Positions 1,905 through 21,839 of a stretch of DNA of 22,444 nt are shown here, piece by piece. The stretch comes from a virus. The stretch is taken from positions 1 to 22,444 of the IMG/VR virus record IMGVR_UViG_3300036846_000994; one strand, written 5' to 3'. Under the pieces are notes generated by a model, which was not told the origin of the DNA, made no database searches, and saw only the letters and a list, made by a program, of their open reading frames with translations. The translations under genes were made by a program, and so were the position numbers. The first letter of the stretch is position 1, and each line of letters opens with the position of its first letter.

Positions 1905-3125
1905 TTAGTCCCCGAGCTGGACGTTCTCTCCCCACGGGGCCTCGGAGCCGCGCTCGCCGCTGAGCCAGAGGACCGGGAAGGGCTGGGGCTCGCCGAAGTC
2001 CGCCCGCGTCATCTCCATGTCGCTGAGGACGATGGCGCAGCGCGGCTGGTAGTTGTTGTCGTGGACGGCCTGCCAGATGGGCCGCATCGAGGTGCCGCCG
2101 TAGCCACGGACGGGAACCTCCCGGGGCAGCTCATCATCGGGGCCAAACTCGGTGACGTTGTGGACGCGGGTGTCGCACTGGATGAAGATCGTGCGCTCCG
2201 GCTTGACCTCCGAGAGGATGAGAGCGAGGAAGCCGAGGAAGCGGGGCACGAGGGTCCGGCAAGAGCCGCTGGTGTCGATGCCGATGACAATCTCACCGAT
2301 GCCCTGGCTGTGGAGCGAGGGGAGGATGAGGTTGCTGTGGATGGAGCGGCGGTTGGGCCGGGACCAGCTGTAGTCGTCCTTGCGGCACATCGACACGTAG
2401 TAGCGGATCAGGTCCCACGGGTTGAGGCGGGGCTTGACCGGGCGCACGAGGTGCTCATAGGAGCCGGGTAGGTGGCCTTGGCTCTTGGCGATCTCGGCGG
2501 CCTGACGGGCGATGATCGTCCACTTCCGTTCGAGGTCTTCGAGGATGGCGCGCTTTTCCTGGGCGGTAGCAGCTCCGCTGGTGGGGTCGGTCGGGTCATG
2601 GATGTCGCCGTCGAGGCCGCAGGGGGGAAGCTGGGGCTGGTTGGTTTTGTTCTCCTCGTAGAGTTGCTCTGCTGCCTTGCCCTTGTTTTGAGGGTTATGG
2701 AAGATGGCGTTGGCCTCCGGCGAACCGTGGTCGGGAGGCTCAAAGCCATGGAAGATCAGCTCCGGGTCGATCCGTTGGTCACAAGCGATGTTCCAGCCGA
2801 GGGGATCACGGGAACCACGACGCCAGCCGTCGCCCTTGGTGCAGTGCGAGGTTTCGTGGGCGATGGTGGCGATGAGTTGAGCGTCGCTGACCTGCGCCTT
2901 GTCGGCATAAACGAGGGGGTCGTAGATGATGTAGGTGCCGTCGGTGCCGATGTTGCCGCCGGCGAACTTGCCGAGGTGGGGGACGGGCTTGAGCTGGAGG
3001 TGAAGGGCCGCCGTCGCCCAGAAGGCGAAGGTGCATTTCCCGTTGGCGTCGTGGGTGGTGAGCATGTGGGACCGGGTGCGACGGATGCGGCGGTCGGCGA
3101 CGGCGATGGCTTCATCGAGGTTCAT
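1905..3125 (-). CDS. Putative metallopeptidase with VWA-like domain (406 aa)
   Basis: The ATG at 3125 is chosen because an AAGGAA ribosome binding site precedes it; the frame stays open to 3203 without support. Residues 90-94 read HETSH, an HExxH zinc motif, followed by the conserved-looking WNIACDQRID segment (111-120). A linker then leads to a VWA-like domain with a MIDAS-type DTSGS at 284-288, GGTS at 343-346 and LSDME at 367-371. This layout matches the DUF2201-type 'putative metallopeptidase plus VWA-like' proteins, whose usual partner is a MoxR AAA+ ATPase, present here as the 344-residue gene. VWA proteins of this kind act with the ATPase as adaptor or effector in remodelling metal-bound or protein complexes. 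The substrate in the phage is unknown. Confidence 0.85.
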   Translation of the reverse strand: MNLDEAIAVADRRIRRTRSHMLTTHDANGKCTFAFWATAALHLQLKPVPHLGKFAGGNIGTDGTYIIYDPLVYADKAQVSDAQLIATIAHETSHCTKGDGWRRGSRDPLGWNIACDQRIDPELIFHGFEPPDHGSPEANAIFHNPQNKGKAAEQLYEENKTNQPQLPPCGLDGDIHDPTDPTSGAATAQEKRAILEDLERKWTIIARQAAEIAKSQGHLPGSYEHLVRPVKPRLNPWDLIRYYVSMCRKDDYSWSRPNRRSIHSNLILPSLHSQGIGEIVIGIDTSGSCRTLVPRFLGFLALILSEVKPERTIFIQCDTRVHNVTEFGPDDELPREVPVRGYGGTSMRPIWQAVHDNNYQPRCAIVLSDMEMTRADFGEPQPFPVLWLSGERGSEAPWGENVQLGD

Positions 3126-3138
3126 GGTAGGGTTCCTT

Positions 3139-3167
3139 CTGCACAAAACCAGCAGCAATCGCAGTAT
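3139..3167. repeat. 29-bp direct repeat, copy 1
   Basis: This 29-base stretch begins CTGCACAAAACCAGCAGCAA and ends TCGCAGTAT. It is identical to 10467-10495, in the same orientation. Here it lies in the untranslated leader of the VWA gene, directly upstream of its ribosome binding site. It does not extend beyond 29 bases on either side. A perfect match of this length over 7.3 kb is not expected by chance. Confidence 0.85.
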
Positions 3168-3195
3168 GTTAGGCCGCGCGGCGAGCTTTTGGCGA

Positions 3196-3212
3196 TGCGA
3201 CACAGTGTCGCA
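3196..3212. promoter_or_regulatory. 17-bp palindromic operator-like site, unit C
   Basis: TGCGACACAGTGTCGCA is a perfect palindrome around one central base. It ends 70 nt before the first start codon of unit C (3125). Read leftward, its continuation (ATCGCCAA) is also shared with the site at 7595-7611, so similarity extends beyond the dyad. Related sites precede the other two leftward units. A dimeric phage repressor or activator is the likely binder. Confidence 0.65.
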
Positions 3213-4883: not shown

Positions 4884-5918
4884 TTAAGAGAGCAGGTCCT
4901 GGAACTTGGCGCAGAAGCGGATGAAGGCACCGCTCTTCTGGAGCCGCTGGTAGCGGTTCTGTTCCAGGGGAGGGAGGGCCTTGAGGCGGGCGGCATCGAC
5001 CGCTAGAGCGCTGCGGACGGTGTAGACCGCGAACTCCGGTTCCACGCGGTCGAGATAGCGGACGATGCGGTCGAAGTTGTTGTTGGTGGCGGCGGAAGAG
5101 AGGGCGGTTGTGACCACGTAGAGCGCGCCGGGGTTGGTGGGGACACGCGCCGTGTCGGGATTGGCGAGGATTTGGGCGACGGAGACAAGTTCCGAGGCCA
5201 TGCTGGCGAAGGCGACGAACTCGGTGGCCGGTCCCTCGCCCACCCATCCCTTGATCGCCTCGAACGGGGGAATAGAGGGGGCGTAGGCGTTGCAGACCTT
5301 GGACAACTCGTCCCAGGTGCGGGGGCAGGCGAAGGGGCCGGGAACCTCGGGCTTGAAGTTCACGAAGTTCATCGGAGCGTGTTGGATGAAGGCGCGGACC
5401 AGGACGGAGCCGCCGGTCGCCGCCATGTGCTGGGTCCAGCCGTCCCTGTCGGGCTCGAACTCCAGCCAGCCCATCTTGCTGACGAGGGGCTTTGGCATCT
5501 GCTGGACGGCGGCCCGGTCCTCAGCCCGGTTGCCGGTGGCGACGATCATCCAGTCGGGGCCGATGTTGTCCCGCTCGTAGACCGTGCGATAGGCGGCCGC
5601 CTGGGTTAGCGGGGGAGCGGTGGGCAGGTCGTCGAAGAGGATGAAGCCAGCGCCGGTCTTGGGTACGAGGTCGCTGAAGGCTATGCGGCGCGCTTCCCCA
5701 TCAATGATGGCCGGGAGGCCGCCGAAGTCGAGGGGGTCGACCACCGTCATCTGAATGGCGCGGAAGGCGAAGTTGGGGATGGTTTCCTCGATCACAGAGG
5801 CGGCGGCCCGGACACAGGCGGACTTGCCGATGCCGGGGGGGCCGGAGAGGTAGGTGGTCTGGCGGAGGCCAGCCATGTAGAGCTTGGTGAGGTGATCGAC
5901 TACCTGGTTGAAGATCAT
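4884..5918 (-). CDS. MoxR/CobS-like AAA+ ATPase (344 aa)
   Basis: Walker A is GPPGIGKS (residues 26-33), Walker B is FILFDD (92-97) and sensor 1 is the Asn of IVATGN (130). The order and the short N-terminal helix before Walker A are typical of MoxR-type AAA+ proteins, which form rings and remodel partners together with a VWA protein. The partner is probably the 406-residue HExxH/VWA protein in unit C. The second half is helical with low similarity to anything I can name. The start at 5918 has AGAAGGA upstream. It is the first gene of unit B, 60 nt after an operator-like site, so its expression probably sets that of the whole cassette. Confidence 0.9.
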   Translation of the reverse strand: MIFNQVVDHLTKLYMAGLRQTTYLSGPPGIGKSACVRAAASVIEETIPNFAFRAIQMTVVDPLDFGGLPAIIDGEARRIAFSDLVPKTGAGFILFDDLPTAPPLTQAAAYRTVYERDNIGPDWMIVATGNRAEDRAAVQQMPKPLVSKMGWLEFEPDRDGWTQHMAATGGSVLVRAFIQHAPMNFVNFKPEVPGPFACPRTWDELSKVCNAYAPSIPPFEAIKGWVGEGPATEFVAFASMASELVSVAQILANPDTARVPTNPGALYVVTTALSSAATNNNFDRIVRYLDRVEPEFAVYTVRSALAVDAARLKALPPLEQNRYQRLQKSGAFIRFCAKFQDLLS

Positions 5919-5978: not shown

Positions 5979-5995
5979 TGTGGCATATTGTCGCA
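5979..5995. promoter_or_regulatory. 17-bp operator-like site, unit B
   Basis: TGTGGCATATTGTCGCA keeps one perfect half (GTCGCA) and a degenerate other half of the TGCGAC-N5-GTCGCA site. It ends 60 nt before the AAA+ start at 5918. Between the two lie tandem TTACTTGG repeats (5951-5967), read leftward as CCAAGTAA. A single CCAAGTAAC also lies in the leader of unit A (7542-7550). Confidence 0.5.
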
Positions 5996-6022: not shown

Positions 6023-6469
6023 TTAGAAGCTGCCGGGGGCGCACTGGAGGCAGGTGTAACCCCGCTCGCGCCACATATTGACTACCTGGTCCCGGTCATC
6101 GACGAAGAGGATCGGCTCCCAGCCGTCGGTCAGCATCTGGTCCAGGAGTTCGGACTTGACGATGTGGTCGGGCCGGTGATCGCCCTCCCGCCGCATGTAG
6201 AGCGCGTTGTGGACGATGCTGTGGCGCAGCAGCCAGGCCATTGTTTCTGAACGGCATTCGTCGCTGCGACCACTGACGATGATCATGCCGTCGTCGTATG
6301 CAGCCAAGGCCAGGTCGCTGTAGAGGCGGGCAACCGGCTCGATCAGCGCGTCCCCACCACATGTGGCGAAGAAGGCTCGCCAGTCCGGCGGATCGGTCTT
6401 GATGAGGGGCAGGCGGTGGTCTAGGTTGGCGAGGGTGCCGTCGAGGTCGAATACGTAGCACTTGGTCAT
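6023..6469 (-). CDS. HAD phosphatase, polynucleotide-kinase 3'-phosphatase-like (148 aa)
   Basis: The start at 6469 has AGGAG at 6 nt; an in-frame ATG at 6508 overlaps the previous gene and is rejected. HAD motifs are all present: FDLDGT (nucleophile D8, acid/base D10), VSGR with S66, K105 in HIVKSELL, and FVDDRD with D124/D125. The compact form without a large cap fits the phosphatase half of phage polynucleotide kinases, which removes 3' phosphates from nicked RNA or DNA. No kinase domain is fused, and none is seen nearby. A nucleotidase role is an alternative. It ends unit A. Confidence 0.85.
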   Translation of the reverse strand: MTKCYVFDLDGTLANLDHRLPLIKTDPPDWRAFFATCGGDALIEPVARLYSDLALAAYDDGMIIVSGRSDECRSETMAWLLRHSIVHNALYMRREGDHRPDHIVKSELLDQMLTDGWEPILFVDDRDQVVNMWRERGYTCLQCAPGSF

Positions 6470-6471
6470 GG

Positions 6472-6669
6472 TCAGCTCCTCTTGGTGGTCAGGTGCCATG
6501 CGCCGCACCAGCAGCGGTAGGCGTGCTGGAGGGGGGCGTGGAACTTGCGGTGGATGTAAGCAGCGTGCTCTTCCGCCTCTTCACGGTTGTTGTAGGGCTT
6601 CTTGAGGCAGGCCCCGTCGTGTGCGCCGAGGTGCTGGCGCAGCTTCTTCAGGGCGTCGTACATCGTCAT
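6472..6669 (-). CDS. Small Cys/His protein (65 aa)
   Basis: The ATG at 6669 overlaps the previous stop as ATGA, which sets the start (in-frame ATGs at 6678 and 6663 are possible). The protein has C21, a KPYNNREEAEEHAAYIHRKF helix and the C-terminal motif AYRCWCGAWHLTTK. The 'YxCxxCxxWHLT' ending is common in small phage proteins, where the Cys and His residues could hold one zinc ion. The function of the family is not established. It lies directly before the HAD phosphatase, with 2 nt between them. Confidence 0.7.
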   Translation of the reverse strand: MTMYDALKKLRQHLGAHDGACLKKPYNNREEAEEHAAYIHRKFHAPLQHAYRCWCGAWHLTTKRS

Positions 6670-6854
6670 GGGTGCCATCCGGGGGCAACATGCGCGACCC
6701 AGCCGAGGAGATCGTCGAGGTAGCGCCCGAGGGCGAAGCCGGCGGCCGCGCACAGGAGCATGGCGAGCGCCAGCGTGAGCCAGCGCAGCCAAGGCCGGGG
6801 AGGCGCGGATACGTGGGGTATCCGCTCCAAGCCCGGTATGTGGTCTAGGCTCAC
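6666..6854 (-). CDS. Small single-pass membrane protein (62 aa)
   Basis: A GTG start at 6854 overlaps the previous stop as GTGA, with GAGGT nearby as ribosome binding site. Residues 1-23 are Pro/Arg-rich, residues about 24-43 are a strong membrane helix (LRWLTLALAMLLCAAAGFAL), and the tail is short. The positive charge before the helix suggests an inner-membrane protein with the N-terminus in the cytoplasm. A holin- or spanin-like role cannot be excluded, but the position among early genes argues against it. Its last codons contain the third copy of a 21-bp repeat found in the control region. Confidence 0.65.
   Translation of the reverse strand: MSLDHIPGLERIPHVSAPPRPWLRWLTLALAMLLCAAAGFALGRYLDDLLGWVAHVAPGWHP
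6681..6701. repeat. 21-bp repeat, copy in coding sequence
   Basis: This copy begins GGGGGCAACATGCGCGACCC and matches the core of the two control-region copies (7727-7747, 7815-7835). Here it encodes part of the C-terminus of the small membrane protein and sits just upstream of the start of the next leftward gene. Confidence 0.8.
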
Positions 6855-7102
6855 AGGACCTCGTAGCGGCGGTGGCTGCCGCCCATGACGTAGCTGTAAA
6901 GGCCCCGGTTGGCCTTGTGGCACTCCAGGGCATAGGCGACAGCCTGGCCGATCATGCGCGGCGGCCAAGTGGCGCAGCGGCGACGTATGTCGGCTTCGAC
7001 CTCTGCGTCGGGGGTGCCGACGTGGACGCGGCCCATGAGCCACTTGATGTCGTAGCGGGGGAGCTTGTCATCCCACCGCTTGCCGAACTCGTACTTAGCC
7101 AT
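6851..7102 (-). CDS. Small hypothetical protein (83 aa)
   Basis: The ATG at 7102 has AAGGGAGA at about 8 nt. The overlapping longer frame to 7387 covers two other genes and is rejected. The protein is soluble, with a basic, aromatic N-terminus (MAKYEFGKRWDDKLPRYDIK), then GTPDAEVEADIRRRC and a helix GQAVAYALECHKANRGLY. The 'GTPDAEV' helix start might belong to a helix-turn-helix, but this is weak. I do not recognise the family. Confidence 0.65.
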   Translation of the reverse strand: MAKYEFGKRWDDKLPRYDIKWLMGRVHVGTPDAEVEADIRRRCATWPPRMIGQAVAYALECHKANRGLYSYVMGGSHRRYEVL

Positions 7103-7104
7103 GG

Positions 7105-7281
7105 CTAGGCTCTCCCTTGCTTGCGTAGTTGCAGACGATACTCCGACATGTCCCACAGAGCGGCCGGGATGTGCGGCGGGAGGCCCCAATAGGGGCGCTC
7201 CTTGTAGTGCAATATCAGGAGGTTGCCGGTGCGCAGGTAATGGACGGCGGCGCAGTGGAGTACCCACATGGTGCGTCCCAT
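7105..7281 (-). CDS. Small hypothetical protein (58 aa)
   Basis: The frame starts with ATG at 7281 behind GAGGG and lies 2 nt past the stop of the gene before it. It ends with TAG at 7105-7107, just before the next start. The protein begins MGRTMWVLHCAAVHYLRTGN and has an aromatic/Pro stretch ERPYWGLPPHIPAALWD. The 'YWGLPPHIPAALWD' part looks like a real folded motif rather than noise. The tight fit between two genes with ribosome binding sites makes it likely to be translated. Function unknown. Confidence 0.65.
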   Translation of the reverse strand: MGRTMWVLHCAAVHYLRTGNLLILHYKERPYWGLPPHIPAALWDMSEYRLQLRKQGRA

Positions 7282-7283
7282 GG

Positions 7284-7514
7284 TCAGGCCCTCGTGCGGA
7301 TGCGGGTGGCCGGGATGCCGGTCCTGACGAGAAAGGACCAGGTGGCATAGCGGTCCTGCCCTTTGGCCGTCGCACAGCGCAGCACAATGCGGGCGCGCTG
7401 CTGGACGCTCATCATGTCGCAGCCCCTGGTGTCTGCGTACAGGTTGCAGAGGTTGTCTATGTCCTCTGAAGCATTGTCCTGTAGGTCCTGGAGTACCTGT
7501 GTAGCGATCTTCAT
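7284..7514 (-). CDS. Small hypothetical protein, first gene of unit A (76 aa)
   Basis: The ATG at 7514 has CCAGGA upstream at about 10 nt. The protein is helical and soluble: MKIATQVLQDLQDNASEDID, then a segment MSVQQRARIVLRCATA and an Arg-rich end. It is the first gene of the leftward block after the control region, a place where early phages often encode host-takeover proteins. I do not recognise it. It is followed by the 58-residue gene after 2 nt. Confidence 0.65.
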   Translation of the reverse strand: MKIATQVLQDLQDNASEDIDNLCNLYADTRGCDMMSVQQRARIVLRCATAKGQDRYATWSFLVRTGIPATRIRTRA

Positions 7515-7594
7515 GGCCTGTGCTTCCTGGTGTGGTAGGTTGTTACTTGGTAGGCGAACACCAATATTGGGCGCTTTGCCTGGAAACTTGTCGA

Positions 7595-7611
7595 TGCGAC
7601 CAAGTGTCGCA
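7595..7611. promoter_or_regulatory. 17-bp palindromic operator-like site, unit A
   Basis: TGCGACCAAGTGTCGCA has perfect 6-base arms with a 5-base spacer. It ends 80 nt before the first start of unit A (7514). Read leftward together with flanking bases it matches the unit C site at most positions over about 24 bases. Confidence 0.6.
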
Positions 7612-7627
7612 GCAAAAGCTCAATGTT

Positions 7628-7648
7628 TTCAACGGCTTAGCGGCAAAT
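7628..7648 (-). repeat. Inverted copy of the ATTTGC-TAAGC-GTTGAA element
   Basis: The reverse strand reads ATTTGC-CGC-TAAGC-C-GTTGAA. The element at 7918-7935 on the forward strand matches at 17 of 18 positions, with one 3-base gap. Both copies lie between a TGCGAC-type site and an AACGC-type site. Confidence 0.5.
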
Positions 7649-7650
7649 GC

Positions 7651-7667
7651 AACGCAACGGTGGCGTT
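7651..7667. promoter_or_regulatory. AACGC-N7-GCGTT palindromic site 1
   Basis: AACGCAACGGTGGCGTT has perfect 5-base arms and matches the perfect palindrome at 8335-8351 at 15 of 17 positions. It is one of three such sites between 7651 and 8351. Confidence 0.5.
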
Positions 7668-7722
7668 CGATTGGGCCGACTTGCGAGCCAACATTTGCCG
7701 AGGGGAGCCCAGGACTGGACTC

Positions 7723-7750
7723 AGGAGGGGGCAACATGCGCGACCCACCC
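7723..7750. repeat. 28-bp direct repeat, copy 1
   Basis: The repeat begins AGGAGGGGGCAACATGCGCG and ends ACCCACCC. It is identical to 7811-7838, and the two copies start 88 bases apart. A 21-base core also occurs at 6681-6701. Confidence 0.85.
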
Positions 7751-7781
7751 GTGGCTGGGAGGGCTTGACGGCGAGTCTAAG

Positions 7782-7814
7782 TCCTGGTACTCCCTCTATG
7801 AGGGAGTACCAGGA
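7782..7814. other. Perfect 15-bp hairpin with 3-base loop
   Basis: The left arm 7782-7796 (TCCTGGTACTCCCTC) and right arm 7800-7814 are exact reverse complements around the loop TAT. The second 28-bp repeat begins at 7811, inside the right arm. No T-run follows on either strand, so an ordinary intrinsic terminator is unlikely. It could be a bidirectional transcription barrier, an origin element or a recombination site. Confidence 0.8.
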
Positions 7815-7838
7815 GGGGGCAACATGCGCGACCCACCC
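7811..7838. repeat. 28-bp direct repeat, copy 2
   Basis: This copy is identical to 7723-7750 and overlaps the last four bases of the 15-bp hairpin. Confidence 0.85.
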
Positions 7839-7893
7839 TTACCCATGGGCTGGGCGGGGACGCGCCCACATGCGAGGCGAAAAAACCTGGCTA

Positions 7894-7910
7894 GGTGACA
7901 GAATGTCGCA
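7894..7910. promoter_or_regulatory. 17-bp operator-like site, degenerate
   Basis: GGTGACAGAATGTCGCA keeps one GTCGCA half and a degenerate partner. Read leftward with its flank (TGCGACATTCTGTCACC then TAGCCA) it matches the unit C site at about 18 of 24 positions. It is followed rightward by the ATTTGC element and an AACGC site. Confidence 0.45.
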
Positions 7911-7917
7911 GGCTACG

Positions 7918-7935
7918 ATTTGCTAAGCGGTTGAA
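7918..7935 (+). repeat. ATTTGC-TAAGC-GTTGAA element, forward copy
   Basis: ATTTGCTAAGCGGTTGAA corresponds to the reverse complement of 7628-7648, apart from one mismatch and a 3-base gap. Confidence 0.5.
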
Positions 7936-7959
7936 GTTGCTGGCCCATCCGGCGAACGG

Positions 7960-7976
7960 AACGCGCCGGGAGCGTT
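7960..7976. promoter_or_regulatory. AACGC-N7-GCGTT palindromic site 2
   Basis: AACGCGCCGGGAGCGTT has the same 5-base arms, the same spacing and a central CGG like its relatives. It lies about 90 nt upstream of the first rightward gene (8067). Confidence 0.45.
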
Positions 7977-7979
7977 TAT

Positions 7980-8040
7980 TTGGGGCGGTTTTTGGCGATG
8001 CCGTGCTTGACTGGTTTCGCCAAAGGGCATTCCGCCCCAA
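7980..8040. other. Two-tier inverted repeat in the leader of the first rightward gene
   Basis: Outer arms are TTGGGGCGG (7980-7988) and CCGCCCCAA (8032-8040). Inner arms are TTTGGCGA (7991-7998) and TCGCCAAA (8017-8024). Both pairs are exact. The fold would be a long hairpin with a small internal loop and an 18-base terminal loop. It ends 26 nt before the start at 8067. It could be an RNA control element, or a DNA cruciform at an origin. Confidence 0.65.
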
Positions 8041-8066
8041 GGCCATAACCGAAAGCACAGGTCGCC

Positions 8067-8273
8067 ATGATTACACCGAAATGCGAAGGCAACACGTTGA
8101 CCTTGGTTGTTGCGCTGAACGTCAAGCCGACGGCGAGCCAGAGCGGCAAGAGCCGCATCGTCGCCAAGACCGGGCCGTTCGTCGAGATTTCGACGCCGTT
8201 CGGCATGGTCAAATACAACCTCAACGTCATTACGACCGATGAGAACTACGGGAAAGGCCCCGCCAAGGTCTAA
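8067..8273 (+). CDS. Small beta-rich protein (68 aa)
   Basis: The ATG at 8067 has only a weak ribosome binding site (ACAGGT). The protein starts MITPKCEGNTLTLVVALNVK and continues SGKSRIVAKTGPFVEIST and MVKYNLNVIT, an alternating pattern of beta strands with a lysine-rich surface, similar in style to small single-stranded nucleic acid binding or OB-like proteins, although I cannot name a family. Codon use is normal for the phage. It is the first rightward gene, has a structured leader, and is followed by a strong terminator, so it is probably a single-gene transcript expressed at a high level. An overlapping reverse frame (7976-8230) looks less protein-like. Confidence 0.7.
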   Translation: MITPKCEGNTLTLVVALNVKPTASQSGKSRIVAKTGPFVEISTPFGMVKYNLNVITTDENYGKGPAKV

Positions 8274-8296
8274 CCCGCCAGCAACCTCGCAGGACT

Positions 8297-8321
8297 AGGC
8301 CGCCGTGTGCGGCCTTTTCCT
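8297..8321 (+). terminator. Intrinsic terminator
   Basis: The stem AGGCCGC (8297-8303) pairs perfectly with GCGGCCT (8309-8315) around the loop CGTGT and is followed by TTTCCTT. It lies 24 nt after the stop of the 68-residue gene, as expected for its terminator. Confidence 0.85.
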
Positions 8322-8334
8322 TGCCATGAAGGGA

Positions 8335-8351
8335 AACGCTACGGTAGCGTT
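8335..8351. promoter_or_regulatory. AACGC-N7-GCGTT palindromic site 3 (perfect)
   Basis: AACGCTACGGTAGCGTT is a perfect palindrome around one central G. It lies just after the terminator and 68 nt upstream of the putative HTH gene at 8420, so it could be an operator for that gene. Confidence 0.55.
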
Positions 8352-8419
8352 CCAATCTAGGCGACGGGCGAAACGCAACGACCCCGGATACCTATCGCAG
8401 CGATTTGAAGGGGCTAGGG

Positions 8420-8884
8420 ATGCGGGAGGCGGTTTCAGCTACCCCAACTAGGGGATCACCGGGCAAACCGGTTGTAGACCCAGCGCAGGAATCTACAGGG
8501 GCAGTGTCAGAGATAGGGGATGTGGTCGGAGCGATACAGGTGATGGCGGCAACCCGTAACATGTTCTACTCCCATACTCCAACAGGGAACCCAGACCTAC
8601 GGAACCCATACGGTACGCACCTTTCCCCTGCTAGGCATGGGGCCAAGGGGATCGCAGGACTACGATCCGACATAGGCGACGGGAGCCTATCTCTAGCTCA
8701 GCTCGCTAAGATGTCAGTACGGCAGGTGATGGCACGCTACAGCGTCTGCTATGGGGTAGCATGGCGCATGCGCCGTCATGTGCTGGCCTATGGTCTAGGG
8801 GGACGGTGTAGGCTACCGGGAGGGAGACCCAGGGACGTCCCCCTCCCTAGGCTAGGGCCAGTGACAGATCCACGCACGTAGCGC
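8420..8884 (+). CDS. Putative HTH DNA-binding protein (about 153 aa)
   Basis: The frame opens at TTG 8405; ATG at 8420 behind AAGGGGCTAGGG is more likely. The N-terminal half is low-complexity and probably disordered. Residues about 95-122 read SLSLAQLAKMSVRQVMARYS and then VCYGVAWRMRRHV, which fits a helix-turn-helix (compare 'ARYgVS..tVwRIR'). The C-terminus is basic and Pro-rich. Codon use, with many CTA, AGG and ATA codons, differs from neighbouring genes, suggesting a foreign origin or a weakly constrained gene. A perfect 17-bp palindrome lies just upstream, so it could be the regulator that binds the AACGC-type sites. The ORF itself is moderately supported. The end includes the TAG stop after the last listed codon. 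Confidence 0.45.
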
Positions 8885-9109
8885 GTACATGCGATGGGTC
8901 GGTGATGGTGGATGATAAGTGTCCGCCACCCATCCATTCCCCGGGTGAAATTTTGCGCCCCCCACCCGCGCTTCGCTCGGGTTTGCTACCACTGTTAGTT
9001 CCAACTGATCGCACCTGGTCGTTGACTTCGAGGCGACCTTCGTCCATGATATGATCCAACTTGCCGGTTTTCCTAGCCGGCTAACCCCTTATTGGGAAAG
9101 GATCATTTC
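8885..9109. other. Intergenic stretch with hairpin and promoter-like element
   Basis: No gene is convincing here. A GC-rich hairpin with one mismatch followed by TTT lies at 8965-8984 (CCCGCGCTTCGCTCGGGTTT) and could be a weak terminator for the HTH gene. A short stem (GCCGG/CCGGC) at about 9062-9081 precedes the ribosome binding site of the next gene. A reverse-strand frame (8847-9059) has no supporting features. Confidence 0.4.
9047..9055 (+). promoter_or_regulatory. Candidate extended -10 promoter
   Basis: TGATATGAT fits the extended -10 form (TGnTATAAT, one mismatch) 55 nt upstream of the start at 9110. A TTGACT lies farther upstream (9022-9027), at a good spacing only for a poorer -10 (CATGAT). 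It would drive the two small virion-like genes that follow. Confidence 0.4.
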
Positions 9110-10466: not shown

Positions 10467-10495
10467 CTGCACAAAACCAGCAGCAATCGCAGTAT
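10467..10495. repeat. 29-bp direct repeat, copy 2
   Basis: It is identical to 3139-3167 and in the same orientation. Here it lies in the leader of the late block, while copy 1 lies in the leader of unit C on the opposite transcription strand. Confidence 0.85.
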
Positions 10496-14688: not shown

Positions 14689-15029
14689 GCGGACCCGGCC
14701 CCTACAACCTGGTGATCTACCGGGGGGACACCGCCACCTGGGAGTTTGTGCTGTGGGAGGATGCCGCCAAGACGGTGCCCTTCGACCTCACGAACGCAAC
14801 AGCGAAAGCTGAAATCCGCAACCGGCCCGGCGGCGTCCTGCTGGTCACCCTGACCACCAGCATCACCATGCCGAACATAATCAACGTCTTCTTGACCGAA
14901 GCCAACAGCCTGGCGCTCAACGGCGGCGTCTTTGCGTGGGACCTACCGGTGACTATGTCGGGAGGCACCGTGCAGACCATGGTGGCGGGGCCTGTCACGG
15001 TGACGGAGGATGTAACAGGGAGCGTGTGA
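14685..15029 (+). CDS. BppU-like N-terminal-domain protein (114 aa)
   Basis: GTG at 14685 overlaps the previous stop as GTGA, with AGGA upstream. The pattern [14 protein letters not shown], then [30 protein letters not shown] and [20 protein letters not shown] fits the N-terminal domain family seen in baseplate upper proteins and many phage tail genes. It is a beta-rich virion protein, probably linking the fibre to the tail. It is followed directly by the fibre gene (TGATG overlap). Confidence 0.8.
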
Positions 15030-17269
15030 TGGCCTTCACCGATGTCGCCGTTGTCGATGTCGTTCCGCCGCCGCCCATCGTGGTCGATGTGGTGGTGCCG
15101 CCGGGTGTCCAGGTGGTGGAGGTTATCGCTGGGACCCAGGGTCCGCAGGGAGTGCCCGGCCCCCCAGGTCTCAATGGTGCCGTAGGGCCGGTGGGGCCGC
15201 CGGGTACTCCCGGAGGGCCGCCGGGTCCAACGGGTCCGGCCGGCGTGAATGGTGCCACTGGTGCCACTGGCGCTCCTGGCCCACCGGGGGGTCCGACTGG
15301 ACCGACTGGACCGGCAGGCCCTACGGGTTCCACAGGCGTACCAGGACCCATCGGCCCTGCTGGAGCTACCGGCGCTAATGGGCCTGCTGGACCGACGGGT
15401 GCCACAGGAGCCGCATCTACGGTACCAGGACCGACGGGACCCACTGGTGCAACGGGGGCGACGGGTGCCACCGGTGCAACAGGGGCGACGGGAGCCGCAT
15501 CTACAGTACCGGGACCAACTGGGCCAACCGGGGCCACAGGTGCTACCGGAGCCACGGGTGCGCCGCAGACAGCCGCCAACCCGACAGCCCAGGTCAGCGG
15601 CACCGTTGTCAATGGCAGTGCAACCACATACATGCGCTCCGACGCAGCCCCATCGCTGGCGAATACTACCGTGACGGCGGGTTCTTATACACTAGCCTCG
15701 ATCACGGTGGATGCCCAAGGGCGACTGACGGACGCCTCCAGTGGCACGGGCAGTGGAGGAGTAACCAGCATCACTGCTGGCACTGGGCTCGCGGGCGGTA
15801 CCATTACCACAACCGGGACCATATCGCTGACGACACCTGTCGTCGTCGCTAATGGCGGCACCGGGCAGACAAACCTGGCGGCAAACAATGTCCTGGTAGG
15901 TAACGGCACCTCGGCGGTCTCTCTCGTCGCTCCCGGCGGCAACGGCGCGATCTTCGCCAGCAACGGCTCGGTGTCGGTCCCGTCCTACCGTTCACTGACC
16001 GCATTGCTCGATGCTATGGTTGGCACCGGCACCCAAGGGCAGATTATCTATCGCGGGACTGCGGTTTGGCAGGCGCTGGCTCCCGGTACAGCCGGTCAGA
16101 CGATGCTATCGGGCGGTTCCGCTGCTAATGTGTCCTGGGGTGCGGTCAGCCTGACGGCAGGTGTAAGCGGCACGCTGCCTGTCGCCAATGGCGGCACCGG
16201 GCAAACGACGCTTACTGCCAATGCGGTGCTGGTTGGTAACGGCACTTCTGCCGTTACCGCGTCCGCCATTACCAGTGACAATGGCTCGACGTTGCGGGTG
16301 ACAACCAATCAAGTTATTGGGCCGGCGGTCACGGGACCGGCTGTACACAGCTTGGTGATAAACGACACGGCGACCCAGCCGCAACCGGGCTATGCTGTCT
16401 CTGGGCGGCTCACCATCGCGTCTGAAACGACAAATCCGATGCTGTTGCTTGATGGCTACGGACCTAACACTAACTATCCGTATATCCTGCCACGTGTGGC
16501 ACGGGGGACGGCGGCTGCTCCAGCTGCTATGGCTTCGGGTGATTTTCTTCTGCAAACCGCCGCACAGGCTTACAACGGGACAGCTTATTCCGGTGCCGCC
16601 AGCATCGCAATGTTAACGACTGAAGCGTGGTCGGCTGGACATCAAGGGACTGAAATCACTTTTAGCACAATCCCTGCTGGGACCACTGCGGGGGTGCAAT
16701 CGTTGATCCTCAGCGGCAACAGCGCAACATTCTCCGGCACTGTGACGACAACAGGTATCACTATCGCCCCCGCCGGCACCGCTGATGCGCATATAACCCT
16801 TACAACATCAGCCAGAAGTTGGTTATTCGGCGGGCAGGGATCGGCAAGCCCCGATCCCAACTCCTGGATTATCTACGACAACACAGTTGGTGCCTTCCGC
16901 TTTGTCATCGATACCGCCGGCGTCACCTACAACACGTCCGGCAGTTGGACGGCAATCAGCGATCCTCGCGTTAAGACCGATATGGCTTCCTACACTGCCG
17001 GTCTGAGCGAGATCGAGCAGCTTGAGCCGATCACCTATCGTTACAACGGTGAGGGCGGCACACCGGAAGATGACGAGAGCGTCACCCGCTACGGCCTCGA
17101 TGCACAGGCGACACAGGTGGTCATGCCGGAACTTGTTGGTGAGCGCAGCGGCTACTTGTCGCTCGACAGTGGCCCGCTGATCTACGCGTTGTGCAACGCA
17201 GTCAAGGAGCTGTCGGCCCAGAACGCTGACCTCGCCGCCCGTCTCACAGCTCTTGAGAAGGCACGCTAG
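15029..17269 (+). CDS. Collagen-like tail fibre with S74 chaperone domain (746 aa)
   Basis: ATG at 15029 ([20 protein letters not shown]) has GGGAG upstream and overlaps the previous stop. Residues about 35-178 are Gly-X-Y collagen-like triplets. A DNA-level duplication within them repeats [20 protein letters not shown]. Residues about 300-420 contain two fibre repeats of the type [14 protein letters not shown]. The C-terminal 103 residues form a peptidase S74 intramolecular chaperone: SDPRVKTD with the catalytic Ser 644 and Lys 649, TYRYN, YGLDAQ and a final coiled coil. In this family the domain helps the fibre trimerise and then cuts itself off just before the serine. The stop is TAG. Confidence 0.9.
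15404..15560 (+). repeat. Internal repeat within the collagen-like region
   Basis: Two near-identical DNA units begin GGAGCCGCATCTAC (15410 and 15490) and encode the same [20 protein letters not shown] stretch, with synonymous differences. Slippage or recombination between them would change shaft length in steps of about 80 bases. Confidence 0.7.
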
Positions 17270-18625: not shown

Positions 18626-20133
18626 TGGCTGACGACGACACGGGTAGGGCGCAGCCCGGCCTCAAGCAGGACCTCCCCCAGCTGAACCTGCCGGATGTCT
18701 ACGTGGGCAAGCCGTCGCCCGATTATGCTGCCGACATCCCGTCGGCGCTGAGGTCGGCGTACAAGGCGATGGTCGACAACGGGGTCACGCCGTGGAATGC
18801 CCGCGAGGCGCTTCTGCCGCCGGCCGACGAGGTGCTGCGTGCACCACTTACCTTTGGCGAAGGAGAGGACCTGGCGATCTACGGGCAAGGCGGCCGGCCG
18901 CAGACCGGCGACCCGGTGATCGGCGGCGGGCCGGCGCAGCTTGGTTTAGAGGGTCTGCGAGGCTACACGCCGGGCGACTACTACAAGCGCACCTATGACT
19001 ATGTCGGGATGAAGAACGCAGCCGACACCCAGCCAGAGCTTGAGGACCAACGTTGGTGGGGAGCCAACCTCCAGCGCAACCGGGCCTTCTTGAACCCAGG
19101 GGCGACGGCCCCCTACAACACGCAGCTGCCACCCCAGCAGGAGGCCCAGTTCCGCGCCTGGCTGACTGATAACAAGATCCCCTTCAATCCCGACCTGCCT
19201 GTGTCGGACTACGACATGCGCGGCTACTGGGCCGCCCTTCAAGCCGGCGACCCGCACGCCAAACAGGAGGTCGACCCCAACGACAACCGGCCGCACTTCC
19301 CCGATTACTGGAAGACACCTCTCTCACCTACCTTTTCCAGCGACAGTCAGTGGGCCAACCCCGAGGTGGCTCCGAGATGGGACGGCGACAACTACCGGTT
19401 GCCGAATGGCCAAATCCTGTGGGACGACAAGGCGCAGAAGTGGATCGGACCCAACCCGCCATGGGGACCACAGAGCCAGGCACCGCAGCCAGCGCTGCCA
19501 CGGATGGGTGGGGTGCCGACGGCCAACTCCCTCCTCCAGCAGATCATGGCCGTGCCGCCGCATGCGCCGCAGGGGCAGGAGGACCCCTCTATTGTTGGAC
19601 TGGCCCCTCGGGAGCGTGACTACCCGAAGGATGACGAATACGGGCACATCCCCCAGCAGGGGCCGGCGCTGACCCCCTTGTCACCACGGTCCCTCCTCCA
19701 GCAGATCGGCACCTTGCACGGGTTTGGCGACATGGACGAACAGGAGAAGGCCGGTAACCTGGTTCCGTCTCTTGTGCCATATCTGTTTGCCCCCGGTAAT
19801 ACGGTCAGACCGGGGGACATCACCAACCCGCCGTACTATAGACCGGGGATGTATGGACCTCCGGCCAACGAGGCAGCTCTTCAGCAGGCTCCCCTCCTCC
19901 AGCAGGCGGCCCTCTTGCGGATGCTGCTGCCGGGTGGGTTGGTGGGGCCGGGCGGCTACAAGCCGATGCCGGGCACCCAGGACAACCCTCTGTTGCAGCC
20001 TGGAGAAGAGGGTGCGGTGGTGGGGTCGAGGCCGGTGCCGGGGAGCCGCGACCGCAATCGGTTCTTCAACCCCAATGGGTTGGCCCCCTATAATCCACCC
20101 GGCGTCCCAGACGACCGTAGTCAGGAGACTTGA
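18625..20133 (+). CDS. Pro-rich structural protein with YDMRGYW domain (502 aa)
   Basis: ATG at 18625 overlaps the previous stop (TGATG), with AGGGACA upstream. Residues about 165-260 hold QEAQFRAWLTDNKIPFNPDL, then SDYDMRGYWAALQAGD, HFPDYWKTPLSPTFSSDSQW and RLPNGQILWDD. I know this domain from structural gene blocks of podovirus-like phages, where it lies near the portal, but it has no assigned function. The remainder is Pro/Gln-rich and repetitive, with three copies of a LLQQ motif, one in NSLLQQIMAVPP and one in RSLLQQIGTLHG. It is probably a virion protein, perhaps internal or at the head-tail junction. Confidence 0.75.
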   Translation: MADDDTGRAQPGLKQDLPQLNLPDVYVGKPSPDYAADIPSALRSAYKAMVDNGVTPWNAREALLPPADEVLRAPLTFGEGEDLAIYGQGGRPQTGDPVIGGGPAQLGLEGLRGYTPGDYYKRTYDYVGMKNAADTQPELEDQRWWGANLQRNRAFLNPGATAPYNTQLPPQQEAQFRAWLTDNKIPFNPDLPVSDYDMRGYWAALQAGDPHAKQEVDPNDNRPHFPDYWKTPLSPTFSSDSQWANPEVAPRWDGDNYRLPNGQILWDDKAQKWIGPNPPWGPQSQAPQPALPRMGGVPTANSLLQQIMAVPPHAPQGQEDPSIVGLAPRERDYPKDDEYGHIPQQGPALTPLSPRSLLQQIGTLHGFGDMDEQEKAGNLVPSLVPYLFAPGNTVRPGDITNPPYYRPGMYGPPANEAALQQAPLLQQAALLRMLLPGGLVGPGGYKPMPGTQDNPLLQPGEEGAVVGSRPVPGSRDRNRFFNPNGLAPYNPPGVPDDRSQET

Positions 20134-21839
20134 TGGCCAGGCGGAGTCAGACACCCAGCCATGCCGCCAACCTTGGCCGGATACCCCGGCGGGATGTCGG
20201 GGCGTGGTGCCAGGAGATCATCGCCAAGTGTACCGTGAGCCGGGATGACCGGGTCCGGCAAGCGCAGGTCTACAGGAACTTCTACTACACGGGGACGGAT
20301 GACGGGCAGGGGGCCGTCGACAATGAGATTTACCCGGCGGTGGATCATCTGGCCTCGTCGCTCTTTAGCCCCGTCAACCCAAGATTTGTCTTTAGCTTTG
20401 ACCATAGCGATACGCCGGAAGAGAGAGCTAAGGGACACAAGGCCGCCGAGCATCTCAGCAAGGAATTCTCCCGCCGGGGTGTCGACAATGCCTTTGCCGC
20501 CGCCGTCAACTGGGGCCTCATCGACAGCTCCTGCTTTGTCAAGCTGCTGTGGGGTCGGAAGGGCCTCGATCCCTATGTGATCGCCCAGGGCTTTATGGGT
20601 GTCTACTACGAGGGCCTCCAGGGACTTGATAGACAGGACGCCTTTGTCCACACCAGCTTCATGACGTTGGGGTCCTTCGAGCGAAGCATCGCGGACCACC
20701 CCGAAGAGCGGGCGATCAAGAACTATGTCAGGAGAAGGGCGCGGGCCGATCCCACCATCATGGGCCAGCAGCACGACGTGCGCACGTTGTTGATTGGCGG
20801 CACGATCCCGGTCAACCTGACGCCGCCCCAATCGAGCATTCCGGGAGGCTGGGTCAACTGGGTCAAGGGTCCCCGCCCACAAGTCGATGCCCAGACCCTG
20901 ACGGAGCTTGTCCAGATCGACGAGCTGTGGGTGATCGACAATGACCGGGAGGACTACACCACCTTCCAACTGGTGGACGAGCTGGTCATCGAGGGCAAAC
21001 TACAAAGACGGAACCTGCTGGGCATTAGTGGGCATCAGCCCTTTGTCCAAGTGGTTCCCAATCCTGTGCTCGACTACTTCTGGGGAAGGTCCGAGGCGGC
21101 CCAGCTGATGATGGCCCAACAGGCGGTCACGGCCCAAGTGAATGGCATCTCGCGGACCATGCGGATGCAGGAGGACCCGCCGATGACCTTCAACGGGATG
21201 ACCGGCAACATCGATGAGAAGCGAAGTACACTCATGAAGCCCGGCGGCCGCCTCGCAGAGAACAACCCGCAGTTCAAGGCCGAGAACATGGCCCCCAAGT
21301 TGGCCGAGCAGGCCCTGCCTTTCCTGGGAGATTTGAGGGAGAACTTCCACCGGCAGAGCGGCTTTGAGGCACCTGTGTCCAGAGGCATGGGCGAGCAGGG
21401 CGTGCGGTCAGGTGTTCATGGGGAGACGATGGTGCGGATGGCTAGTCCAAGGTTGCGGGACCGGGCACTCGACATCGAAAAGACCTATGCCGAGTTGGGT
21501 GACCTGGGGTTCCAGATGTTGCAGGACAAGGTGCCCGACATGTTTGTGGTCCATGTCGACGGCCAGGCCAAGCCAGTAGAGTTTATCCTGGACCAATTGG
21601 CGGATGATTACGATCTGTCGGTAGACAGTCATAGTGCAAGTCCGGCCTTCTCGGAAGAAGCAAGGTCGCTTGCCTTTGACTTGGCGAGGACCAAAGCCAT
21701 TGATGACAAGGGGCTAATCCGCTTGACACACCCTCCCCAGGAGGACACTCTTCTGGCCGACATCGACGAGCGCCGGAAGAAGCAAGCAGAGATGCTTGCA
21801 GCTCACCCGGAGATGCTGCGGTCCCAGGGTCGCCGTTAG
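20133..21839 (+). CDS. Portal protein (568 aa)
   Basis: ATG at 20133 overlaps the previous stop (TGATG). The protein has the layout of the portal (head-tail connector) family of podovirus-like phages: an N-terminal helix RDDRVRQAQVYRNFYYTGTD, a conserved IYPAVDHLASSLFSPVNPRF, a long alpha/beta middle, PNPVLDYFWGRSEAAQLMMA, and a C-terminal crown helix with ERRKKQAEMLAAHPEMLRSQ. Twelve copies would form the ring through which the terminase pumps DNA. Here the portal lies 7 kb downstream of terL, behind the fibre gene, which is an unusual order. Confidence 0.85.
   Translation: MARRSQTPSHAANLGRIPRRDVGAWCQEIIAKCTVSRDDRVRQAQVYRNFYYTGTDDGQGAVDNEIYPAVDHLASSLFSPVNPRFVFSFDHSDTPEERAKGHKAAEHLSKEFSRRGVDNAFAAAVNWGLIDSSCFVKLLWGRKGLDPYVIAQGFMGVYYEGLQGLDRQDAFVHTSFMTLGSFERSIADHPEERAIKNYVRRRARADPTIMGQQHDVRTLLIGGTIPVNLTPPQSSIPGGWVNWVKGPRPQVDAQTLTELVQIDELWVIDNDREDYTTFQLVDELVIEGKLQRRNLLGISGHQPFVQVVPNPVLDYFWGRSEAAQLMMAQQAVTAQVNGISRTMRMQEDPPMTFNGMTGNIDEKRSTLMKPGGRLAENNPQFKAENMAPKLAEQALPFLGDLRENFHRQSGFEAPVSRGMGEQGVRSGVHGETMVRMASPRLRDRALDIEKTYAELGDLGFQMLQDKVPDMFVVHVDGQAKPVEFILDQLADDYDLSVDSHSASPAFSEEARSLAFDLARTKAIDDKGLIRLTHPPQEDTLLADIDERRKKQAEMLAAHPEMLRSQGRR

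Follow-up and report, generated by a model that had tools for sequence, protein, structure and literature searches.

A duplicated module of palindromic sites in the probable control region between the opposed gene blocks of an uncultivated phage

Results

The window, by which we mean the whole stretch of DNA that was analysed, is a virus record of 22,444 bases (IMGVR_UViG_3300036846_000994) from an uncultivated phage. Its genes point leftward up to position 7514 and rightward from position 8067. The gap between these positions is the sole divergent gap in the window and is the control region considered here, with a leftward replication block on one side and a rightward structural block on the other. 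The genes referred to below are as follows.

1905-3203, leftward, left side: gene in a PHROG named HNH endonuclease; likely ATG at 3125
4884-5918, leftward, left side: ATPase gene
6023-6508, left side: polynucleotide-kinase phosphatase
7284-7514, minus strand: first leftward gene, 76 aa
8067-8273, plus strand: 68-aa gene, between sites C2 and C3
8420-8881, plus strand: encodes a small predicted helix-turn-helix protein; the first long gene after site C3
11059-13230, right side: large terminase gene
20130-21839, right side: portal, weak match

A long ORF at 14936-17269 contains collagen-like G-x-y repeats and, judged by eye, probably encodes a tail or fibre protein. An identical 29-nt pair, CTGCACAAAACCAGCAGCAATCGCAGTAT, is present at 3139-3167 and 10467-10495, 7.3 kb apart, and is exact in the relatives too; one copy sits between a site of the type called A below and the ATG of the 1905-3203 gene.

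The closest relatives (G002, G004 and G005) share about 80-90% nucleotide identity with the window by segment, and the terminases of the more distant ones (G006, G007 and G008) are 66-71% identical to that of the window (66% in G008). G002 comprises 56,993 bases and its first 97 bases are repeated at its end, which suggests that this genome is complete. Its leftward block encodes DNA polymerase A, a helicase, a primase-like protein, a Sak4-like protein and an exonuclease; the terminase lies in its rightward block, together with genes that are probably for the virion. The G002 terminase (L017 7780-10539) has an extra, intein-looking insertion of about 250 residues after KSRQLGE, with a CLDPDTRIL start and an HN end, that the window terminase does not possess. 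The G002 DNA polymerase A (L016 5726-8775) is divided between two ORFs, the N-terminal of which also matches a uracil-DNA glycosylase domain. Relatives are few in the collections searched, and a single metagenome (3300036846) is the source of three of the four closest. The control region had no match by distant blastn in a 50,697-record phage collection, and a viral_contigs search with the repeat and left-flank patterns matched only the three known close relatives. A portal search of bacterial genomes found no relative, and a terminase profile search reached just one further fragment, which does not carry the control region.

A sequence-only reading of this DNA had described a three-part module that occurs twice, at 7595-7667 and 7894-7976, with its middle element inverted between the copies. 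Every element is found at these coordinates and in this order, as a site A, an element B and a site C within about 80 bp, and B indeed lies on the minus strand in the left copy and on the plus strand in the right copy. The outer elements, given as short words, are present but are actually 17-bp dyads, and a third C (8335) and the A sites at 3196 and 5979 had been missed.

3196-3212, minus strand: an additional A site with the perfectly palindromic sequence TGCGACACTGTGTCGCA; 70 nt upstream of 3125, the likely ATG of the 1905-3203 ORF
5979-5995, minus strand: another A site; 60 nt upstream of the start of the ATPase gene (5918)
7595-7611, minus strand: site A1, TGCGACCAAGTGTCGCA; 17-bp dyad, TGCGACACTTGGTCGCA on the minus strand; 80 nt upstream of the 76-aa gene, which starts at 7514
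7614-7641, minus strand: element B1, GCTAAGCCGTTGAAAACATTGAGCTTTT on the minus strand; inverted GCTAAGCCGTTGAA at 7628-7641
7651-7667: site C1, dyad AACGCAACGGTGGCGTT
7894-7910, minus strand: site A2, GGTGACAGAATGTCGCA; TGCGACATTCTGTCACC on the minus strand
7922-7944, plus strand: element B2, GCTAAGCGGTTGAAGTTGCTGG; GCTAAGCGGTTGAA at 7922-7935; TTGAAG could be a -35 element
7960-7976: site C2, dyad AACGCGCCGGGAGCGTT
8335-8351: site C3, perfect palindrome AACGCTACGGTAGCGTT; after a hairpin at 8297-8315 and before the helix-turn-helix gene

Site A is of the type TGCGACA-N3-TGTCGCA and site C is AACGC-N7-GCGTT, with the consensus AACGCNACNGTNGCGTT; both are 17-bp dyads. Element B has the form AAGC.GTTGAA. 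A stands 60, 70 and 80 nt upstream of three leftward gene starts (5918, 3125 and 7514, respectively), and A-type sites are placed likewise in G002. Other short elements were noticed near the first leftward start, among them a palindrome, CCAATATTGG, at 7562-7571 that each of the four close genomes keeps. At 7542-7550 the minus strand carries a CCAAGTAAC box; the CCAAGTRAC box is also located ahead of the ATPase gene (5959) and is found again in relatives.

The four close genomes share one arrangement: A-B-C, then the repeats and hairpin, a second A-B-C, the 68-aa gene and C3. The sequence-only reading had named relatives with this gene layout but lacking the module as evidence that would count against it; on comparison, both modules are present in G002, G004 and G005, and largely so in the distant G008. 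The distance from the start of A to the start of C in the left and right modules, respectively, is 56 and 66 bp in the window, G002 and G004, 58 and 66 in G005, and 53 and 65 in G008, so that the left and right spacings are about one helical turn apart. The distance between the modules varies from 299 to 476 bp because the number of repeats varies. In G007, A-like and C-like sites are present without this A-to-C spacing. Among 16 sites of each kind the arms are near-invariant and the centres are free, with a C-site arm imperfect in G002 (left C) and in G005 (right C). Exact C dyads in G002, G004, G005 and G008 are confined to the control region, and a reversed control pattern gave none. These conserved dyads, their fixed spacing and their synteny provide good support for the proposal that the modules form a duplicated array to which two or more factors bind.

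Chance alone seldom reproduces the arrangement in the window, in shuffle tests that were picked after the sites had been seen: none of 3000 dinucleotide shuffles produced three 5-N7-5 palindromes with the same arms within 7515-8400, 9 of 3000 produced two within 7515-8066, and 5 of 300 produced the inverted 14-mer with 13 of 14 matches. Over the whole window the C pattern with at most one mismatch was found 3 times against 0.56 expected, a number matched in 3 of 100 shuffles. Since A and C as single patterns are only moderately enriched over chance across the window, the weight of the evidence rests on conservation in the relatives.

The dyads might act not as duplex operators but as RNA or single-strand hairpins, either terminators or promoters of the kind used by phage N4. 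A and C can fold as 7-bp stems with 3-nt loops, and the promoters of the N4 virion polymerase are hairpins that resemble such stem-loops. However, variation in A breaks pairs without compensation, unlike that in the hairpin at 7783-7813 described below, and the common A.C mismatches between the arms argue against an RNA stem at this site. An Rfam scan of 6400-8900 gave no match at E values up to 1, and the longest ORF found in G002 encodes 1168 aa, far below the size of the N4 virion polymerase. We consider the hairpin interpretation very improbable.

The two modules flank repeats (7722 and 7810) and a hairpin (7783-7813), in agreement with the sequence-only reading.

6676-6704: left copy of the 29-nt repeat, core GGGGGCAACATGCGCGACCCACC
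7722-7750, plus strand: repeat copy 1, core GGGGGCAACATGCGCGACCCACC; two to four copies here in relatives
7783-7813: hairpin with a perfect 14-bp stem, directly before repeat copy 2
7810-7838, plus strand: repeat copy 2, core GGGGGCAACATGCGCGACCCACC

Every close relative has two to four copies of the 29-nt repeat in the control region and one or two about 1-1.5 kb leftward, always on the same strand. The hairpin stem is complete in 4 of 4 genomes, three of its pairs having changed on both sides, and its predicted folding energy is -26.7 kcal/mol (z -6.5). It is not an ordinary terminator because it has no T-run. By these patterns of variation the hairpin is selected for pairing, and A and C look selected for sequence. 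Two other explanations of the repeats were rejected: T7-like promoters, because the copies are clustered on one strand and not spread before genes, and short conserved peptide starts (a good ribosome-binding site followed by ATG CGC GAC CCA), because indels break the frames between relatives.

A replication origin, one of the two functions suggested by the sequence-only reading, would account for the middle of the region as follows. The GGGGGCAACATGCGCGACCCACC repeats would be iterons bound by an initiator, the hairpin a structural element of the origin, and A and C would control access of the initiator or transcription through the origin. The repeats are variable in number and clustered on one strand, solely here and about 1 kb leftward, the hairpin is under selection for pairing, and the replication block starts at the divergent junction, all of which favor this reading. 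The GC skew does change sign here, but it passes from positive to negative across the junction, which is opposite to the direction at a bidirectional origin, and it tracks the direction of the genes. Clustered direct repeats are accompanied neither by regular, helically phased spacing (the intervals are 88; 93/95/65; 124/81/65; and 88/34) nor by an A+T-rich stretch for unwinding, the repeats and the whole region between the modules being G+C-rich. In addition, A sites are also found ahead of other genes. The origin reading is thus not supported by the reversed skew, the G+C-rich middle and the irregular repeats, and we regard it as unlikely.

A1 and C1 are separated by 39 nt in the window, G002 and G004 and by 41 nt in G005. 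When the left spacer of the window is aligned in the forward direction with those of G004 and G005, the scores are 14 and 16 (p 0.12 and 0.04, base shuffles), whereas with one spacer inverted they rise to 28 and 36 (p 0.0005, the lowest value that the test can give). Left B in G002 is oriented like that of the window and is opposite in G004 and G005, and the direction of right B is identical in all four close genomes. Because B occupies the same place in the spacer either way round, about 28 bp have been inverted in situ, the operators on each side being fixed. The two orientations, with the flanks unchanged, are seen from one related phage to another, not inside one population. Gene conversion from right B as the source of the G005 left B was rejected, since the latter scores 36 against the inverted left B of the window and 15 against its own right B.

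The features expected of an invertase system were not found: the flanking inverted repeats at left B are just the 4-nt AAGC/GCTT near its ends, and the tyrosine and serine recombinase families had no match in the window and seven relatives. In yeast, template switching between short inverted repeats inverts spacers (PMC8604942). By analogy this process may be the simplest cause of the inversion of B, with AAGC/GCTT too short for proof.

To the right of the second module, the 68-aa gene has homologues in the same place in G007 and G008, and is followed by the terminator-like hairpin at 8297-8315 and then by C3. The 8420-8881 gene has homologues at the matching place in six relatives, with identity down to 27%. 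Its product is likely a small helix-turn-helix regulator, judging from a modelled core (residues 77-124) of four helices, with block pLDDT values mostly of 83-89 and the remainder poor. HTH_17 was matched by one of seven family members (E 0.00067). In a structural comparison the top row was the GntR-family protein 3eet_B (Z 4.0 over 50 residues, rmsd 3.1), with which unrelated helical domains tie, and Pfam GntR had no match to the family. Foldseek gave no match to the helix-turn-helix protein at E 0.001 or better, and PDB sequence searches with the family gave nothing convincing. From its position we propose this protein as a candidate C-binding regulator. The presumed DNA-reading helix of the family differs among relatives with identical C arms. 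In G007 and G008, C3 adjoins a weak promoter-like pair seen by eye, TTGCRT-N17-TATCYT, that would center C3 at about -42, an activator position; a pair of this type is not present beside C3 in the window.

Repeat clusters are present at some phage packaging sites, and the repeats lie on the same side of the genome as the terminase, which is 3 kb to the right and might recognise the repeats and dyads. The positions of the sites speak against this: A is also found ahead of unrelated leftward genes and C ahead of a regulator-like gene. We give very little credence to a packaging site.

Discussion

We propose that this is the main transcription-control region between the opposed gene blocks, and that the duplicated operator module probably serves to coordinate the divergent operons. 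This proposal is based on sequence and on its conservation. A is the predicted site of a dimeric DNA-binding protein and would also mark two further leftward units. C is the predicted site of a second protein, for which the simplest candidate is the 8420-8881 product, which in that case would control the operon that encodes it. B is a likely promoter core, with TTGAAG, a 17-nt spacer and a poor -10; A2 would then lie near -63 and C2 would cover the start point. A poor -10 implies that a promoter at B would depend on an activator. The sigma-70 scan revealed no recognisable promoter in the control region, and the PF00940 profile for single-subunit RNA polymerase gave no match, its positive control being silent as well. 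Binding at both modules, and the activation or repression that we infer from it, would set the balance between leftward and rightward transcription, possibly with bending or looping of the 300-480 bp between them. The result is a testable cis-regulatory map for an uncultivated phage group, with two dyad types, fixed spacing and a candidate regulator.

A more specific version of this proposal is that B, about 28 bp long, acts as a promoter core and was flipped in place between two different palindromic operators, firing leftward under A1 or rightward under C1, so that the direction of the left promoter has been rewired by micro-inversion without a dedicated recombinase. We rate this version as quite unlikely. 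The comparison does show that a promoter-like core changes direction from one close relative to another, with its flanking operators staying put, and if B is a promoter, this would be a clean natural case of regulatory rewiring through micro-inversion.

The phage switch raised by the sequence-only reading holds as a control region for left and right operons but not as a lysogeny switch. The operators of the lambda OR and OL type are 17-bp palindromes in a divergent promoter region, and the 17-bp dyads described here recall them, as would be expected of a temperate phage with CI/Cro-like repressors. Here, in contrast, there are two types of site rather than one, and the profiles for integrase (PF00589), serine recombinase (PF00239) and the CI/Cro-type HTH_3 found nothing in the window or in its seven relatives, eight records of which only G002 is apparently complete, and positive controls were matched. 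A lysis-lysogeny switch is accordingly highly implausible.

At the late promoters of phage Mu, the small helix-turn-helix activator C binds beside the -35 at non-consensus elements (PMC4461284). A small phage helix-turn-helix protein and promoters with non-consensus elements would be common to both systems, and one member of our family touches the late-activator PHROG 836, a contact that is insignificant (E 0.35). The family has no significant match, and the sequence of the C site and the layout are unlike those of Mu.

In the A2c/A2b-A3 control region of Bacillus phage phi29, binding of p4 (and p6) at two stretches of sites switches early and late transcription (PMC3100819). Like the region described here, it is divergent and contains two stretches of paired imperfect inverted repeats between opposed promoters (PMC3100819). 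The phi29 late promoter has a poor hexamer and needs an activator, to which the poor -10 proposed here may be likened (PMC3100819). Further, p4 and p6 bring operator clusters together, and the clusters in our phages, 300-480 bp apart, could act alike (PMC3100819). The two systems differ in that p4, a single protein, recognises CTTTTT-15-AAAATG, a consensus that is absent at our sites, whereas here there are two different 17-bp dyads, with element B and its in-place inversion between them and with repeats and a hairpin in the middle. The replication genes are also unrelated, with DNA polymerase A in the present phages. Because its dyads differ from the p4 consensus, the region may work like that of phi29 yet is not one. 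As a conserved operator array it belongs to a general kind that is known, and the in-place inversion of its central element is unusual.
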